From positions 1 through 35,522 of IMG/VR virus record IMGVR_UViG_3300017717_000026: a stretch of 35,522 nt of DNA, one strand, 5' to 3'. Positions 12,743 through 29,093 of the stretch are shown here, piece after piece (within the stretch, counting starts at the first letter, position 1; every line of letters starts with the position of its first letter). The notes below the pieces were generated by a model that was given only the letters and a program-made list of their open reading frames with translations, had not been told where the DNA came from and searched no databases. A program made the translations under genes and the position numbers. This stretch comes from a virus.

Positions 12743-14311
12743 ATGCCTAGAGATATCCAATACACCAAACTGCTAGGACCACAAGTTGAAATAACAATGA
12801 CTAACGGTCCTGATTATGAAGGAACGTACTCAGCGTCTACAACGTATGCTGCTGGAGATGTTGTAGCCTACAATGGTTCTTCTTATGTTGCTAGACAAGC
12901 AACGACAGGTAACACACCTGGCGACACTTCGTATTGGCAAACATTAGCTTCTAAAGGCAATGATGGTCCATCTGGTCCTTCAGGGCCAGGTGGAAGTACT
13001 GGTCCTGCTGGACCCACTGGACCTGCTGGACCTAACGGTCCAAGTGGACCTACTGGACCTACAGGTCCACAGGGACCACAAGGAGATACTGGACCTACTG
13101 GTCCTACGGGAAGCACTGGACCCGCTGGACCAACTGGACCTGACGGTCCTGACGGTCCAGCAGGTCCCACTGGTCCTGCTGGTCCAACAGGTGGTACTGG
13201 TCCTACTGGACCTACTGGACCCACTGGACCAACAGGAACTGCTGGGAAAACAGTATTAAATGGTTCTGGAGATCCTTCTGGTCCTACAGGTTCAGATGGT
13301 GATTTCTACATTGATACTGGCGATAATGAAATCTTTGGTCCTAAATCAAGTGGTAGCTGGGGTTCTGGAACGTCTTTAGTTGGTCCTACAGGACCTAATG
13401 GACCAACTGGTCCGACAGGTCCGACAGGTCCAACAGGTCCTACTGGACCTAGTGGTACTGGTCCAACTGGTCCTACAGGACCTACTGGACCTAGCGGTTC
13501 TGCTGGTCCTACTGGTCCCGCTGGTCCTGACGGTCCTGACGGACCTAATGGTCCTACTGGTTCTACTGGTCCTGCTGGTCCTACTGGACCCGCAGGAGGC
13601 ACTGGACCCACTGGTCCAACTGGACCAAATGGTCCTGATGGTCCCGATGGTCCTACTGGTTCTACTGGTCCTGCTGGTCCTACTGGACCCGCAGGAGGCA
13701 CTGGTCCAACTGGTCCAACTGGTCCAACTGGTCCTTCTGGTACTGCTGCTGGTTCTGACACTCAAGTGCAGTTTAATAGTAGTAATGCTTTTGCTGGTTC
13801 TTCTAACATGGTGTTTGATGGAACTAATTTAGATGTTGCTGGTTTGAAGTTAGGTGGTACGGCTGTTACAGCTACTGCTGCTGAGTTAAACATTCTTGCT
13901 GGCGGTATAGGGGTCATTACAGACTTTGATCCATCATGGACAAACTTAACAGAAGGAAACGGATCGTATGATTACAAAGCCTTCTTGCAAATAAATAATT
14001 TAATTGTTGTTTCAGTAAGCTTTACTTTTGGTAGTACGAGCGCTATGAGCACTAACCCTAGTTTTACAGTGCCTGTAGCAGTAGCAGAAACAAACCAAAT
14101 AGTAACTGGCGAAGGTTTAGCAGTTGAAGACGGTGGTAGCAATTACCCTTTACTAGTAAACATGACGAGTAGTGAACTAGTTATTTATGACCAAGCCGTT
14201 GTAAGTAACAAAGTCATACGTTCCGCTGTGACTAGTGGAAGCCCATTTACTTGGGGTACAGGTGACAAGATTCAAGTAACAGCGACTTACTTTACTGGCA
14301 CGCCATCATGA
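12743..14311 (+). CDS. Collagen-like tail fibre with a carbohydrate-binding-like N-terminus
   Basis: This 522-residue protein has four parts. Residues 25-70 resemble chitin-binding CBM5/12 modules ([26 protein letters not shown]). Two collagen-like Gly-X-Y blocks, mainly Gly-Pro-Thr, span about 71-167 and 212-336. They are separated by a 45-residue insert containing [16 protein letters not shown], an insert often seen inside phage and bacterial collagen-like proteins. The C-terminal domain (about 340-522) probably drives trimerisation. It is a likely host-recognition fibre. No clear ribosome binding site is visible. Confidence 0.8.
13550..13704 (+). repeat. 56-base perfect direct repeat in the collagen-like region
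   Basis: Bases 13550-13605 and 13649-13704 are identical, offset by 99 bases (33 codons). The offset keeps the Gly-X-Y register. Unequal recombination could change fibre length here. Confidence 0.8.
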
Positions 14312-24471: not shown

Positions 24472-24916
24472 CCCACGGAAGGAGCTTAGAGCTTATTGAA
24501 AAGTATTTCTTTCCTTCCGCAAAGTTGCCTAGAGGCACATCGTTTTTATTAATGATATTCATTAGTTCTCTAAACTTTACTTGTGCAAAGTTTTGTCGTG
24601 TTGAAGACCACACCCACAAGTACAGTGGTGCTTCTAGACCATCCCACCATTGCATTGCCGCTATCTTTTCCATCTTTATTTTTAGTGGTGTCTTGCCCAT
24701 ACCCATAACTTCTACCAGTCTAGTTGGGTCTGCTTGCACATAGTCTGGTGTGTATCGTATAACGTGAGGTAGATAGTGGAACTTGGTCATTCCTTCTGGT
24801 CTGTTAAATCCAAACCTAGCCCATTGCGTGTTGTGCGCTTCAAATTGTGACTCTGCTTCATCTCCCATAGATAGGAAACGTTCTGCGTATGTTCCTTGAT
24901 GAAAAGGTTTGTTCAT
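24461..24916 (-). CDS. PD-(D/E)XK nuclease-like protein, possibly altered active site
   Basis: In this 151-residue protein the segment YTPDYV (D58) followed by RLVEVMGMG (E69) and LKIKMEKIAAM resembles the PD-(D/E)XK fold of small phage nucleases. The lysine normally two residues after the Glu is Met71, so activity is uncertain; a lysine from the next helix might replace it. It overlaps rusA by 4 bases (ATGA) and lies in the recombination operon, which fits a nuclease or DNA-end-binding role. Confidence 0.5.
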   Translation of the reverse strand: MNKPFHQGTYAERFLSMGDEAESQFEAHNTQWARFGFNRPEGMTKFHYLPHVIRYTPDYVQADPTRLVEVMGMGKTPLKIKMEKIAAMQWWDGLEAPLYLWVWSSTRQNFAQVKFRELMNIINKNDVPLGNFAEGKKYFSISSKLLPWDGD

Positions 24917-25260
24917 TTTTTCTTCCCTACTAGACGGTGTATTTGTCTGTCATCATCATAGGCTAAACCGTTGAGTGCGTCTTCTATACCTTTGACATAA
25001 TTAGAAATGTCGCCCCGTAAGGGCGACATTTCCGTTTCAAGAGGTGAAACCGTTACGGTAACCTTATTACTCCTTAACACAATGCTTAAGGAAACTGGTC
25101 CTTCGAACTTCGGACCTTTATAGTACGATTTCACTACCTCTTCCCAGTCTCTTGTAGCCTTAGGAGTGTAAGCCCATTGCTTACCATTCTTGCTGGTAAC
25201 TCTAGGTCTACCTTTACTCTTAGGTCTATGCGGGATTGAGAACTTGTATGGTTTAATCAA
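24913..25260 (-). CDS. rusA: RusA-type Holliday junction resolvase (TTG start)
   Basis: This 115-residue protein matches RusA, which cuts Holliday junctions formed during phage recombination. PKSKGRPR (residues 13-20) is the basic entry motif, and RGDISNYVKGIEDALNG then YDDDRQI hold the metal-binding acids D84, D94 and D102-104. The second acid of the usual D-x-D pair is Ser86. The frame has no early ATG, so the TTG at 25260 is the likely start, overlapping the primase stop by 8 bases. Three inverted repeats lie within the gene. Confidence 0.85.
   Translation of the reverse strand: MIKPYKFSIPHRPKSKGRPRVTSKNGKQWAYTPKATRDWEEVVKSYYKGPKFEGPVSLSIVLRSNKVTVTVSPLETEMSPLRGDISNYVKGIEDALNGLAYDDDRQIHRLVGKKK
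25004..25032. repeat. 12-base perfect hairpin inside rusA
   Basis: GAAATGTCGCCC (25004-25015) is inverted exactly as GGGCGACATTTC (25021-25032) around a 5-base loop. Two smaller inverted repeats follow directly (GTTTCA...TGAAAC, and GTTACGGTAAC). No T run follows, so a terminator is unlikely. Confidence 0.7.
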
Positions 25261-26149
25261 GGGCTTTCTTTCTAGCAGCGCTGTCTACTAAATCTCGTAT
25301 GCGTTGCTCTCTGTCATCTCTGTCAGTAAACTTTTCTAGTTTGTCGTCTAGTCGTCTCACCCAATCCACTGTAGCGTCTATTGAGTATTCTTGCCATAGC
25401 AGGCTACAAGCAAAGCTAAACAAGGTGGCTGACCTGTCTTCTTTTAGAGTAGGGTTATCCCATATGCGTTGAGCTGAACCATAAAATTGACCTTCTGTCT
25501 TGGTCCCTGCTGAAACTTGTTTGAGTTTCGCAGGTTCAGTGGCTCTGTGTAGTTGCATAAGTTTGCGGTACACACCTGGTGGAGTTCGTTTTACTATAGC
25601 TTCTTTCGTGAACTCTTCTAGTGTGTAGCCCTCTACGACTTGCCTATCCTTGTCTCTGATCTTGGGATACGGTAAGCGTAGGCAGTTGCCTATCTTGCCT
25701 TCCTCTAGTTTGACTTGCTTTGGGTAGACTTCTCGAATGGGTACGTCTACTGTTCTGCACGCCCCTATCATTCCTTTGCGTGCAACTTGAGCTGATAAGG
25801 CTTCTTTGAGGTATACCCATACATGGTAGCCTTTACTGCGTGAAGGTTCTTTCCATGCTTTTATACTCATCTGATCTAACAAGGTGATCAGATTGTCTGC
25901 ATGTACGCTTGATAGTTCGCCTTCGTCTAAGTCTACGGCTACCCAACTTACCATCCAAACGTTGTTCCGTTCCCATAGAGGGTACACGCCCAAAGGAACA
26001 TCGCCTCCAAGATGTTCCGCTATGGCTTCTTGGTAAATTTCGTCTGTGATGTCTTTGGTGTGTGGTCGTACCCTGTCTTTCACTAAGGCTATTGCACCGC
26101 CTTCGTGGAGGCTTGCAAAGTCTTCTAGTACGTCTTTTATTCCAGCCAT
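25253..26149 (-). CDS. Archaeo-eukaryotic-type DNA primase (PrimPol-like)
   Basis: This 298-residue protein carries the AEP primase signature: a catalytic D-x-D on a strand (WVAVDLDEG, D73 and D75) and the nucleotide-binding S-K-G-x-H motif (SRSKGYHVWVY, H109), with a third conserved stretch (GNCLRLPYPK) downstream. It would make primers at phage origins. It resembles the primases found in TOTE-type and phage AEP modules. It overlaps the helicase gene by 13 bases, as expected for a replisome pair. No polymerase gene is present. Confidence 0.82.
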   Translation of the reverse strand: MAGIKDVLEDFASLHEGGAIALVKDRVRPHTKDITDEIYQEAIAEHLGGDVPLGVYPLWERNNVWMVSWVAVDLDEGELSSVHADNLITLLDQMSIKAWKEPSRSKGYHVWVYLKEALSAQVARKGMIGACRTVDVPIREVYPKQVKLEEGKIGNCLRLPYPKIRDKDRQVVEGYTLEEFTKEAIVKRTPPGVYRKLMQLHRATEPAKLKQVSAGTKTEGQFYGSAQRIWDNPTLKEDRSATLFSFACSLLWQEYSIDATVDWVRRLDDKLEKFTDRDDREQRIRDLVDSAARKKALD

Positions 26150-27111
26150 CGCTCATCCTCTGGTATGTCTGACTCATAGTATTCACGAACGAATCCGCAA
26201 GCAGGGTCCATGTAGTAGTCAACAGGTGGAGATGTTATCTGACAGGGTGGGCGCTTGTTCTTGCATAGGTCTAGCGATACGCTGACGCTATGTATGCGCC
26301 GTTCCTCGTCTGATAGCTTAGGGTCTTCACGCTTTCGGAATACGTTTAGTTGTTGTATTGCGTATTCGTCTGCGTTGAACTTGCCTGAGTTCATACCATT
26401 TGAGGTTCCTCGTTGTGACGATTTCCCTGATTGATGTACAAGTCCTACAGGTAGGTTCTGATGTTCTGCCCATTCTTTCAAGCCTTTAAGAACGTTTGAT
26501 ACGCCTTCATAACCTGATGCTTTGGGTAGTTGCTCTAGGAAATCCACCATTACAAAACCTGGTTTGCTTTGCCAGTAGTCTTCACATTCGCTCATTGCTT
26601 CGCTCATGTCTTCAAACGTCATAGCGCTAGGGAATATCTTGACACGATCTAGAAAGCCATCTCTAGCTTCGTTTATCTCTGATACCACATCTCGATCTTC
26701 TATGCGTAGAGCTTCCTCTACTTCAGCTAAGTTACGTTTGAACAGCAAAGCATAGAGCTTAGAGACTACAAGAATCTCAGGTTCATCAGGTGTGTAGATG
26801 ACTCCGTAAAAGTCAGGATTCTCTTGCAAGTTTCTGGCGATACTTGATAGAAGAACAGCGCTCTTGCCTGAGTGCGCTCTGCCTGTAACGACTAAAACAT
26901 CTGAGGGCCAGATGCCTCGCATCTTGGAGTCTATGTCTTGCAATCCGAGGTAGAAGCAGTCATGGCTTCCCTTAGCGTATTGCACCCACTTATCTACAGC
27001 TTCTGATGTTGGCTTAAAAAATTTGTATTTGTCTCCCTCTTGGGAGAGGTCAAGACCATTTATCCTGGCCTTGACCTCTTCCTCAGTGAGGGTTGTTGCA
27101 CCCTCCGACAT
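26137..27111 (-). CDS. DnaB-like replicative helicase (RecA-fold ATPase)
   Basis: This 324-residue protein has a Walker A GRAHSGKS (residues 77-84) and a Walker B strand FVMVDFLEQL (D190), followed by a helicase-like GLVHQSG sensor strand, the order seen in DnaB C-terminal domains. The N-terminal domain of full DnaB is missing; only about 60 residues precede the motor. It probably unwinds DNA with the primase encoded next. It starts in a TAATG overlap with the upstream gene. Confidence 0.82.
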   Translation of the reverse strand: MSEGATTLTEEEVKARINGLDLSQEGDKYKFFKPTSEAVDKWVQYAKGSHDCFYLGLQDIDSKMRGIWPSDVLVVTGRAHSGKSAVLLSSIARNLQENPDFYGVIYTPDEPEILVVSKLYALLFKRNLAEVEEALRIEDRDVVSEINEARDGFLDRVKIFPSAMTFEDMSEAMSECEDYWQSKPGFVMVDFLEQLPKASGYEGVSNVLKGLKEWAEHQNLPVGLVHQSGKSSQRGTSNGMNSGKFNADEYAIQQLNVFRKREDPKLSDEERRIHSVSVSLDLCKNKRPPCQITSPPVDYYMDPACGFVREYYESDIPEDERWLE

Positions 27112-27866
27112 TACTTAGCCTGATAAGCGAATTGTTGTAGCTCTGCCCTGCGAGTTACCCAATCCCATTCAATGGCATCAGCTTCTGTCTGTCCCCCGAC
27201 TTGATCCCAGACCTTTAATGGCACGTTACTATCACCATCGTTGATCCATACACCATAGTCTCGCTCTACCGCAATGCCACAGTGCTTGAGTGCATCTGCT
27301 GTGATAGAGAAGTTAGGATAGTTAGTTCCACGATTCGTGGTGTCTGTTGAACCATCAGCGTGTTCCTTGACTGTGTACACTCGCTGTTCGCCTGTGTCAC
27401 CCATCCATGTAGCTGGTTGGAATGCAAGTATATTGAACGCTGCTTGCTTCTTGTCTGAATCCTTTCCTACACAGGTAAGTGTTCGCTTGTATGTCCTGCC
27501 TGTGATTTTACCACCTGAAGGTGCTGGTCTAGCTGGTGGTGCTGCTATGGATTTAGCCGTTGGACCACTTTGGCTACTATTGGTGGGTGCTTGCGTAGGG
27601 GCGCTTGACGCACTACTTGTAGCTTGGGGAACAGCACTTTTGAGTCGGCGCATCACTACGCCTGTGTCACTCATGTCAAACTCTTGACCTGCTTGTTTCA
27701 ACACTTCTGATTTAGCCATCTCAAATAAGAGCTGTGATTGCTCCATTATTTCGGCTTCTCCTGTGTCGTCAACAGTGCGCTCAATCGTTAGTGAGTAGTC
27801 ACTTGTCTCGTAAGGCTGTTCAGATATTTTCTGCGTAAACATTACACTTATCTTTGCCTGTCCCAT
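27111..27866 (-). CDS. Unknown replication-operon protein, possibly ssDNA-binding
   Basis: This 251-residue protein has an N-terminal beta-rich domain (AKISVMFTQKISEQPYETSDYSL), a Pro/Ser/Ala-rich linker (about residues 80-118) and a C-terminal domain with several Trp residues. Its place between a Cas4-like nuclease and a helicase is where many phages encode a single-strand binding or recombination accessory protein. No diagnostic motif supports this. GGAGAAAGAGAG precedes the ATG. Confidence 0.55.
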   Translation of the reverse strand: MGQAKISVMFTQKISEQPYETSDYSLTIERTVDDTGEAEIMEQSQLLFEMAKSEVLKQAGQEFDMSDTGVVMRRLKSAVPQATSSASSAPTQAPTNSSQSGPTAKSIAAPPARPAPSGGKITGRTYKRTLTCVGKDSDKKQAAFNILAFQPATWMGDTGEQRVYTVKEHADGSTDTTNRGTNYPNFSITADALKHCGIAVERDYGVWINDGDSNVPLKVWDQVGGQTEADAIEWDWVTRRAELQQFAYQAK

Positions 27867-27887
27867 TATTACTCTCTTTCTCCTTGT

Positions 27888-28661
27888 TTACCAAGGCTCT
27901 ATTTCGAGGTGTTCACCTCTGCATTTACCTGCCTGCCATACTGGACACCACTTGGGTGAGCAATGCCACCCTTCCCATCGCATCGGCCAGGTACTGGCTT
28001 CATCAATGGTCAGTAGTGTCGGTACTATGGACCAGCAAAGTTCTATGAACGCTTGCTTCTCAGCTTCGCTTCTATGTATTTCTATCACCTGTAGTTTGCC
28101 TTTTGCAAACACGGCTAAATTAAATTGTTCTTTTTCTAATGCCCAAGTATAGGCGTGAGATTGGATATCCCAACGTTTCTTCTCCCATGCTTGATAATGG
28201 CGTGATGGATTCTTCCAATCCCATAGGACACCGCTCTTGTCTGTCCAGTCAGCGGTCCCTGTTAATGTGAGTTGTATTCCGTGACGCACTCCCATTGATT
28301 TACTAAACGTTTGCTCTACTGCTACTGGATCAAGTGAGGGCCAGAGATCGTTGTACCATGTAGTTACATTAGCTCGGCAAGTATCAACAACGGAATCGTA
28401 TTCTTGCCTCCACACTTCAACGTCATTAGCGTTATCAGCAATGTATGTGTCAGTGACATCTATGATTTCGTCATAGTCTACATCGTGTTGTCCGCCAAGT
28501 GATAACAGTCCTGCGTGTTCTATAGCAGCATGGACAGCGTTTCCACGAAGCAGGTCACTACTTTCCTTTTGTTGGACCAAACCAAGACGCTCTTGGCGTG
28601 CTTGTTCAGGGCATCGAAGGAAAGTGTTTATGAAACTTTGCCTTAATTTTATTTCTTGCAT
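27888..28661 (-). CDS. Cas4/RecB-like PD-(D/E)XK exonuclease with Fe-S cysteines
   Basis: This 257-residue nuclease shows the Cas4 layout: C17 near the N-terminus, H44, D138 in TGTADW, D148-W149-K150 (motif D-x-K), Q167-x3-Y171, and C234-x4-C239-x7-C247 at the end. The four cysteines would bind a 4Fe-4S cluster as in Cas4 and AddB. In phages such proteins process DNA ends for recombination. No Cas1 or Cas2 is present, so a CRISPR role is not supported. It is the first gene of the operon, with AAGGAGAAGC before the ATG and a structured leader. Confidence 0.85.
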   Translation of the reverse strand: MQEIKLRQSFINTFLRCPEQARQERLGLVQQKESSDLLRGNAVHAAIEHAGLLSLGGQHDVDYDEIIDVTDTYIADNANDVEVWRQEYDSVVDTCRANVTTWYNDLWPSLDPVAVEQTFSKSMGVRHGIQLTLTGTADWTDKSGVLWDWKNPSRHYQAWEKKRWDIQSHAYTWALEKEQFNLAVFAKGKLQVIEIHRSEAEKQAFIELCWSIVPTLLTIDEASTWPMRWEGWHCSPKWCPVWQAGKCRGEHLEIEPW

Positions 28662-28663
28662 TT

Positions 28664-28735
28664 GCTTCTCCTTATTGTACAGTTGGAACTGAGCCGAGAG
28701 AGAGGGAGAAGCGCACTTAGCCCAGCCCCAACTGT
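28664..28735 (-). promoter_or_regulatory. Leader RNA: 17-pair stem with a loop complementary to the ribosome binding site
   Basis: In the minus-strand transcript, bases 28735-28719 pair with 28695-28679 over 17 positions, four of them G-U. The 23-base loop (28718-28696) contains GCTTCTCC (28712-28705), the exact reverse complement of GGAGAAGC (28671-28664), which is the Shine-Dalgarno sequence of the Cas4-like gene. Pairing of loop and ribosome binding site would give an H-type pseudoknot that blocks translation. G-U pairs on only this strand support an RNA-level role. Confidence 0.55.
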
Positions 28736-28749
28736 AACGTTACTGTTTA

Positions 28750-28784
28750 GGTATTTAAGAATCTTTATGGGATTCTTAAATACC
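28750..28784. promoter_or_regulatory. 14-base perfect palindrome at the replication operon start
   Basis: GGTATTTAAGAATC (28750-28763) is inverted exactly at 28771-28784 around a 7-base spacer. It begins one base past the -10 of the minus-strand promoter, covering the expected transcript start. This is the position of a classic operator; an RNA hairpin is less likely because one arm would be partly untranscribed. Confidence 0.65.
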
Positions 28785-28812
28785 ATTATACAGTTATACT
28801 GTATAGAGTCTA
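28785..28812 (-). promoter_or_regulatory. Sigma-70-like promoter of the replication operon
   Basis: On the minus strand TAGACT (28812-28807, four of six) is followed by a 16-base spacer and a perfect TATAAT (28790-28785). The spacer is exactly the TATAC-T-GTATA dyad shared with the control region. It reads toward the Cas4-like gene and lies just downstream of the WhiB stop. Confidence 0.7.
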
Positions 28813-28817
28813 CAGGG

Positions 28818-29093
28818 TCAAGCACCTCTTCCTCTTTTCCCTTTGTTCACAGTATGACTGTAGTGCATGGGTAGGACAATTCCTCTACGTCTACGTTCAG
28901 CGTTTAACTGAGTACGATTGTAGCCTCCCCATACCCCGTAGTACACACGGTTGGTTACTGCGTACTCTCTACACTCTTCTAAGACTGGACAGGTTTGACA
29001 TATCATTTGTGCCTGTCTAACTTTGACTCTACTTTTTTCTGCAAAAAAAAGTTTTTGTTGTCCTTTGCACGCAGCGTGTTCTGTGTTAAACAT
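28818..29093 (-). CDS. WhiB-family iron-sulfur transcription regulator
   Basis: This 91-residue protein has the WhiB signature: four cysteines C9-x22-C32-x2-C35-x5-C41 binding a 4Fe-4S cluster, the G-V-W-G-G turn (residues 53-57) and a basic C-terminus. WhiB proteins bind the principal sigma factor and redirect transcription in Actinobacteria; phage copies (such as mycobacteriophage TM4 WhiBTM4) can shut host WhiB functions down. The ATG at 29093 is chosen over 29123 because GGGGAGG lies 5 bases upstream. It overlaps the methyltransferase gene by 8 bases and sits directly before the replication promoter, a good candidate target. Confidence 0.93.
   Translation of the reverse strand: MFNTEHAACKGQQKLFFAEKSRVKVRQAQMICQTCPVLEECREYAVTNRVYYGVWGGYNRTQLNAERRRRGIVLPMHYSHTVNKGKRGRGA

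Follow-up and report, generated by a model that had tools for sequence, protein, structure and literature searches.

Organization of the replication operon

The window, that is, the whole stretch of viral DNA analysed here (35,522 nucleotides; positions 1 to 35,522 of IMG/VR virus record IMGVR_UViG_3300017717_000026), carries on its minus strand a replication operon with the following features.

27888..28661, minus strand: Cas4-like PD-(D/E)XK nuclease, the first gene of the operon (Pfam PF12705, 6.8e-12; PHROG exonuclease)
27882..27896, minus strand: coupling hairpin CCTTG-GTAAA-CAAGG, with a similar small hairpin at this junction in most lineages
27111..27866, minus strand: gene 2, conserved in all relatives, with two domains and a low-complexity linker between them
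26137..27111, minus strand: DnaB-like helicase (Pfam PF03796, 1e-9)
25253..26149, minus strand: archaeo-eukaryotic-type primase (Pfam PF22548, 2.3e-16)
24913..25260, minus strand: RusA-like Holliday-junction resolvase (Pfam PF05866, 8.2e-17)

The order Cas4-like gene, gene 2, DnaB-like helicase, primase and RusA is conserved in relatives up to the ends of their contigs. Gene 2 matched no Pfam, PHROG or NCBIfam profile, and its weak structure model found no match among solved structures; the idea that it encodes a single-strand-binding protein is supported neither by profiles nor by fold. Where the first two genes meet, the stop codon of the Cas4-like gene lies in the loop of the coupling hairpin and the Shine-Dalgarno (SD) sequence of gene 2 in its 3' arm, an arrangement that is kept with changed bases in most lineages (CCCT/AGGG in L003, CCCCT/AGGGG in L010, TCCCT/AGGGA in L014). 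A stop codon in the loop with the next SD in the 3' arm is the usual anatomy of translational coupling. In the window the helicase and primase genes also overlap their predecessors. Because of the coupling hairpin and these overlaps, control exerted at the Cas4-like gene would plausibly reach the genes downstream, and the proposal of the initial annotation that nuclease, helicase and primase are governed together gains plausibility from the same hairpin. Elsewhere in the window, at 13055-13493, repeated GGTCC/GGACC units form many overlapping inverted repeats on both strands, probably as a coding repeat of collagen-like type.

Relatives were collected by IMG/VR scans with the Cas4-like protein and its alignment, together with one scan of genome contigs; they span 99 to about 50% protein identity, and the last scans were near saturation. 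The host is probably a marine actinobacterium, since the window has a gene for a WhiB-type protein, WhiB genes are reported from marine Actinomarinales phages (PMC7771536), and the genome-contig scan returned metagenome-assembled genomes labelled Actinomycetota and Acidimicrobiaceae. The nearest annotated phages are Microbacterium phage Schubert and MW202803; in Schubert the Cas4-like gene overlaps the gene upstream and therefore has no such leader as the one described below.

A leader hairpin carries the complement of the ribosome-binding site

Ahead of the Cas4-like gene, the minus strand holds the following elements.

28785..28812, minus strand: promoter-like hexamers TAGACT and TATAAT, 16 nt apart, for transcription of the leader (10/12 consensus match)
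28750..28784, minus strand: HP1, a perfect 14-bp hairpin directly after the -10 (fold z -9.6)
28731..28746, minus strand: palindrome-like element ACAGTAACGTTACAGT, found as identical copies in two lineages, L001/L002 and L015-L024
28719..28735, minus strand: 5' arm of stem S1, ACAGTTGGGGCTGGGCT, with covariation
28696-28718, minus strand: S1 loop, 23 nt
28705..28712, minus strand: anti-SD segment GCTTCTCC within the loop, covarying with the SD across lineages
28679..28695, minus strand: 3' arm of stem S1, GGCTCAGTTCCAACTGT, with covariation
28672..28678, minus strand: linker of 7 nt from stem to SD (2-3 to about 23 nt in relatives)
28664..28671, minus strand: SD region of the Cas4-like gene, GGAGAAGC, exactly complementary to the loop segment

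The S1 hairpin is the second of the leader and is referred to as HP2; the predicted helix between its loop and the SD is referred to as S2. HP2 occupies 28735-28679 of the minus strand and, in agreement to the base with the initial annotation, has a stem of 17 pairs, four of them G-U pairs present only in the minus transcript, closed by a 23-nt loop. The exact 8-base complementarity claimed between loop and SD was likewise recovered (28712-28705 against 28671-28664, GCTTCTCC being the exact reverse complement of GGAGAAGC, which lies directly before the ATG at 28661), and the distance it put at about 25 bases comes to 24 nt between the end of the loop and the SD. The loop-SD duplex of the window is worth -15.0 kcal/mol, which beats the pairing of the SD with the 16S tail (-8.2), the tail used being a generic actinobacterial one that may not be that of the host. 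Folding of the leader gave a z of -5.2 relative to dinucleotide shuffles, with 0/200 shuffles as low.

We scanned 1.67 Mb of loci, counting both strands, for the pattern of a hairpin, a loop complementary to the SD, and that SD followed by a start codon. The arrangement was essentially confined to leaders of the Cas4-like gene, and HP2 was its sole case in the window; the other matches were one at another gene (L043:234), the recurrent opposite strand of HP1, and a minor one in L123/L124. The same scan on 405 kb of shuffled sequence gave 0 matches. The match at L043:234 lies at the start of a different gene (AGGAGAAAAACATG), with a long hairpin upstream whose loop is partly complementary, and may be a second user of the arrangement. 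Rfam 15 returned no match at the gathering score and, at a permissive threshold, only a chance-level one (E 1.1) on the other strand. An intrinsic terminator, in the form of a G+C-rich hairpin followed by a U run, was sought in 28600-28900; none was found, and a terminator or attenuator of that type was accordingly rejected.

Around 0.5 sites with a promoter match as good as that at 28785..28812 are expected in the region, so the match is weak taken alone; a TTGAC/TATAAT-like pair also stands immediately 5' of HP1 in most close relatives. Judged from this placement, HP1 would lie at the transcript's 5' end or close to it, and transcription would start within the HP1 5' arm. Most lineages, among them some that lack HP2, have a hairpin of unrelated sequence in the HP1 position, and one guess at its role is that of a 5'-end mRNA stabiliser. 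The palindrome-like element (28746-28731, ACAGTAACGTTACAG) occurs once per locus, beside HP2 in the window lineage and over the HP1 -10 in the L015 lineage, and may represent a relocated operator or promoter element. A separate near-perfect inverted repeat, ATACAGTATAACTGTAT (28804-28788, minus strand), overlaps the TATAAT box and is operator-like.

The stem is conserved as an RNA helix

About 19 sequence lineages among the IMG/VR relatives (50-99% protein identity) have the same arrangement ahead of the same operon: promoter-like hexamers, HP1 right after the -10, HP2, a linker and a complementary SD. In these relatives HP2 consists of a 12-18 bp stem and a 9-23 nt loop containing CTCC, followed by 2 to about 23 nt, and the leaders of L039, L040 and L044 have an extra small hairpin (e.g. 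ATCGCGCTAGCGCGAT) between HP2 and the SD. Almost no leader bases are common to the lineages; in stem and loop, the SD-matching CTCC is the only sequence that they share.

The structure is kept nevertheless. Within groups that could be registered without gaps, 97.6% of stem cells form standard pairs in register, as against 36-48% when the arms are slid; 15 stem pairs show compensatory changes on both sides, and 18 have a change on a single side. The arms were registered manually, as MAFFT misaligned them where they had diverged, and the cells counted here are sequences, not evolutionary events. Read as the minus transcript, the stem has 50 G-U cells compared with 3 A-C cells. If the structure lay in DNA or in plus-strand RNA, every G-U would become A-C; the selected structure is therefore minus-strand RNA. 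Comparison of the sequences thus identifies S1 as a conserved RNA helix of the minus transcript.

The loop covaries with its own Shine-Dalgarno sequence

Because a GGAG core is common to the SDs of the lineages, some complementarity to the loops was bound to recur. The deciding test was therefore how well each loop fits its own SD compared with the SDs of other lineages. Across 19 lineages the mean duplex energy was -13.34 kcal/mol with the own SD and -11.25 kcal/mol (sd 0.39) after permutation, and 0/20,000 permutations matched the own-pair value, although the permutation ignores the tree, so that the distance in standard deviations is not to be read as a probability. Shuffled loops gave -8.7 kcal/mol. 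The initial annotation's proposal is thereby supported in part, as regards a conserved RNA element and the potential of the loop to pair with the operon's own SD.

The changes responsible can be seen outside the GGAG core, where loop and SD differ between lineages on both sides: GCTTCTCC/GGAGAAGC in the window, GTTATTCTCCC/GGGAGAATAAC in L012, CCTCTCC/GGAGAGG in L039, TGTCTCCCTG/CAGGGAGATA in L050 and TTTCTCCCTG/CAGGGAGAAA in L067. Set out as core and flank, these pairings read GCTT-CTCC/GGAG-AAGC in the window, GTTATT-CTCC/GGAG-AATAAC in L012, CT-CTCC/GGAG-AG in L003, TGT-CTCC/GGAG-ATA in L050 and TTT-CTCC/GGAG-AAA in L067. In L012 the pairing extends to 12-13 bp with wobble, and in L003, L071, L085 and L091 mispairs occur just beyond the core. 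On this comparative evidence, complementarity between loop and SD is both conserved and covarying.

The own SD is the best partner of the loop in 13/29 loci, and in 16/29 another SD is equal or better; since it comes first in only 13 of them, we make no claim of within-genome specificity for the loop. In the window the own SD ranks tenth among the SDs of the window's genes. One of these genes, at 30901-30677 on the minus strand, has an SD that also reads AGGAGAAGC, and the HP2 loop pairs with it no less well than with the SD of its own leader.

Loss and erosion of the arrangement

Stem and complementarity, whose loss in related phages the initial annotation had named as evidence against its proposal, are both kept in the roughly 19 lineages above. 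The exceptions are L010/L011 and a set of distant lineages. In L010/L011 (81% identical protein) there is a different hairpin with no anti-SD loop, and the SD reads AAGGGAAC. The distant lineages (L098, L100-L104, L114-L128 and L215-L228) usually have a TAnnnT-like element about 8-10 nt before the start and mostly no SD (L117 retains GGGAG), and from its sequence the Cas4-like gene looks leaderless there. Among them, a CTCC-loop hairpin stands without an SD in L098, L100 and L216-L225; the hairpin is altered in L104 and L226, and gone in L103, L120, L121 and L125. Such erosion is the effect that would be expected from loss of the pairing partner, and the surviving CTCC loops without an SD are left unaccounted for by it; the GGAGAG SD of the next gene is one possible partner of these loops.

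Geometry of the predicted pseudoknot

In L012, L050 and L091 a linker of 2-5 nt follows a stem of 14-15 bp, and an intact stem and the full loop-SD helix do not fit together in one molecule. Short linkers therefore point either to a stem that opens partly at its base or to intermolecular pairing. We used a crude pseudoknot model (Turner stacks, a Dirks-Pierce penalty and a linker span limit), according to which S1 with S2 is more stable than S1 on its own, by 2.5-9.6 kcal/mol, in 19/19 leaders, with 0-4 basal pairs open. The window would need zero or one basal pair opened, and leaders with linkers of 2-5 nt would accommodate both helices in one molecule only if 2-4 basal pairs open. Of the pseudoknot put forward in the initial annotation, the potential for loop-SD pairing therefore stands, whereas for linkers of 2-5 nt the classical form, in which the stem stays entirely closed, is strained or impossible. 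On the modelling, masking of the SD in cis is plausible, not proven.

Alternative explanations

The same loop could act in trans, with S1 staying closed and the loop binding SDs of other molecules, be these further copies of the same mRNA (two leaders held as a dimer by two loop-SD pairings, a brake that would sense mRNA number) or the SDs of other phage genes. Stems of 14-15 bp with linkers of 2-5 nt suit this arrangement better than a cis pseudoknot, other SDs of a phage are strong partners for its loop, and some deep lineages retain a CTCC loop where their own SD is gone and the next gene has a GGAGAG SD. Nonetheless we consider it rather unlikely: the loop flanks covary with the leader's own SD, which is nearby in cis and hence favoured (the covariation test covered the own SD only), and the crude energies permit pairing in cis, with modest opening, in each lineage modelled. 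An unlikely outcome, too, is density feedback, in which the loop would mask the SDs of other mRNA copies or genes so that translation of the operon drops as transcripts accumulate.

HP2 could also serve mainly to bind a repressor encoded by the operon, in the manner of T4 genes 43 and 32, with loop-SD pairing secondary or an aid to binding. Operators of this type usually retain specific bases, and apart from the SD-matching CTCC the lineages have no stem or loop sequence in common. Nor could any likeness to known RNA- or ssDNA-binding proteins be detected for gene 2. We hold such an operator to be quite improbable, even though the operon encodes nucleic-acid-binding proteins and T4 replication genes are under control of this kind (PMC3014915). 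There is similarly little probability that the pseudoknot or stem aids translation, by showing the SD to the 30S subunit or keeping it unstructured, as in ColIb-P9 repZ. Translation of repZ requires its pseudoknot (PMC8383071), and the rpsO pseudoknot docks on the 30S subunit before being melted (PMC3858243); but the repZ pseudoknot sits upstream of the ribosome site and that of rpsO sequesters coding sequence, leaving SD/anti-SD pairing possible, whereas here the pairing consumes the SD itself, to the extent of the 12-13 bp seen in L012. By far the least probable reading is that of a DNA element (operator, origin or cruciform) or of chance inverted repeats with no RNA device, for which one may cite the start of the repeat beside a palindrome and promoter-like sequence and the start of HP1 at the -10. 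The excess of G-U over A-C in the minus transcript, the loop-SD swap test and the lack of matches in shuffled sequence speak against this reading. Given the G-U asymmetry, the covariation and the shuffles, a chance or DNA-only repeat was rejected, and the arrangement is not due to chance.

Proposed mechanism

We have high confidence that the HP2 leader is a real, conserved and previously unlisted RNA element. As the pairing is kept while its letters change, it is probably a real translation brake, and we have moderate confidence that it works by masking the SD in cis. The reading that we favour, and think somewhat more probable than all others combined, is that the leader is a cis-acting RNA attenuator of translation of the replication operon, whose loop masks the SD by forming a pseudoknot. 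During transcription the long stem S1 would form first, because it is made before the SD, and would display the anti-SD loop. Once the SD has been made, a few dozen nt later, the loop could pair with it to form S2, of 6-12 bp. The resulting pseudoknot may require, in leaders with a short linker, that the first few pairs at the base of S1 open. The loop would then be the nearest rival of the 30S subunit for the SD, and translation of the Cas4-like gene would be lowered or delayed, an effect that could be passed on to helicase and primase via the coupling hairpin and the overlapping genes. We infer in this way the formation of S2 in cis, its repressive effect, and the spread of repression by coupling; as for release, our guess is that the 30S subunit itself or a product of the operon might bring it about.

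Relation to known RNA devices and significance

We know of no device that combines a long sequence-free stem with a loop conserved only in its complementarity to its own SD, and no description of such an element was found in the open-access papers searched. The initial annotation's statement that no RNA of this form is known to have been described in phages of this type agrees with the absence of an Rfam match and with a 2010 review of T4, in which the T4 gene 32 pseudoknot is possibly the sole viral case used in translational autoregulation (PMC3014915); as a kind of device, however, the SD-masking pseudoknot is known. In preQ1 riboswitches of class I type III and class II, a pseudoknot takes up the SD and the ribosome is blocked (PMC11625349). 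The likeness lies in this SD-sequestering pairing, but preQ1 riboswitches are compact aptamers with conserved ligand-binding bases, whereas the stem here has 12-18 bp and nothing is conserved outside the SD match. The T4 gene 32 leader is alike in being a phage pseudoknot for translational control of a replication gene (PMC3014915); it differs in lying about 67 nt upstream of the start and nucleating gp32 along an unstructured A+U-rich ribosome site, whereas here the loop pairs with the SD directly and no A+U-rich site is evident.

Further parallels come from outside phages. Escherichia coli rpsO (S15) has a ribosome-site pseudoknot that the 30S subunit, with ribosomal protein S1, must unfold (PMC3858243), but there the pairing involves coding sequence and a dedicated repressor traps the 30S subunit, whereas here the SD is the partner and there is no known repressor. 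ColIb-P9 repZ likewise uses a leader pseudoknot as the switch of a replication gene (PMC8383071); translation there depends on the pseudoknot, which an antisense RNA blocks, while in the leader described here the pairing would hide the SD. In Helicobacter pylori aapA3, one of the type I toxin mRNAs, an upstream anti-SD pairs with the SD and translation is delayed (PMC6733600). The aapA3 structure is a simple, transient, local anti-SD/SD hairpin, in contrast to the anti-SD held here in the loop of a separate and very stable hairpin.

The short linkers raise a structural question of their own, between partial stem opening and pairing in trans. Since complementarity to the own SD is the sole sequence constraint, searches for conserved motifs miss such elements, and a search based on complementarity could reveal more of them. 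If the reading proposed here is true, these leaders would constitute a widespread class of RNA control elements, so far undescribed, in phages whose marine actinobacterial hosts are abundant and for the most part uncultured. From their position at the start of the replication operon, such elements could govern nuclease, helicase and primase together.
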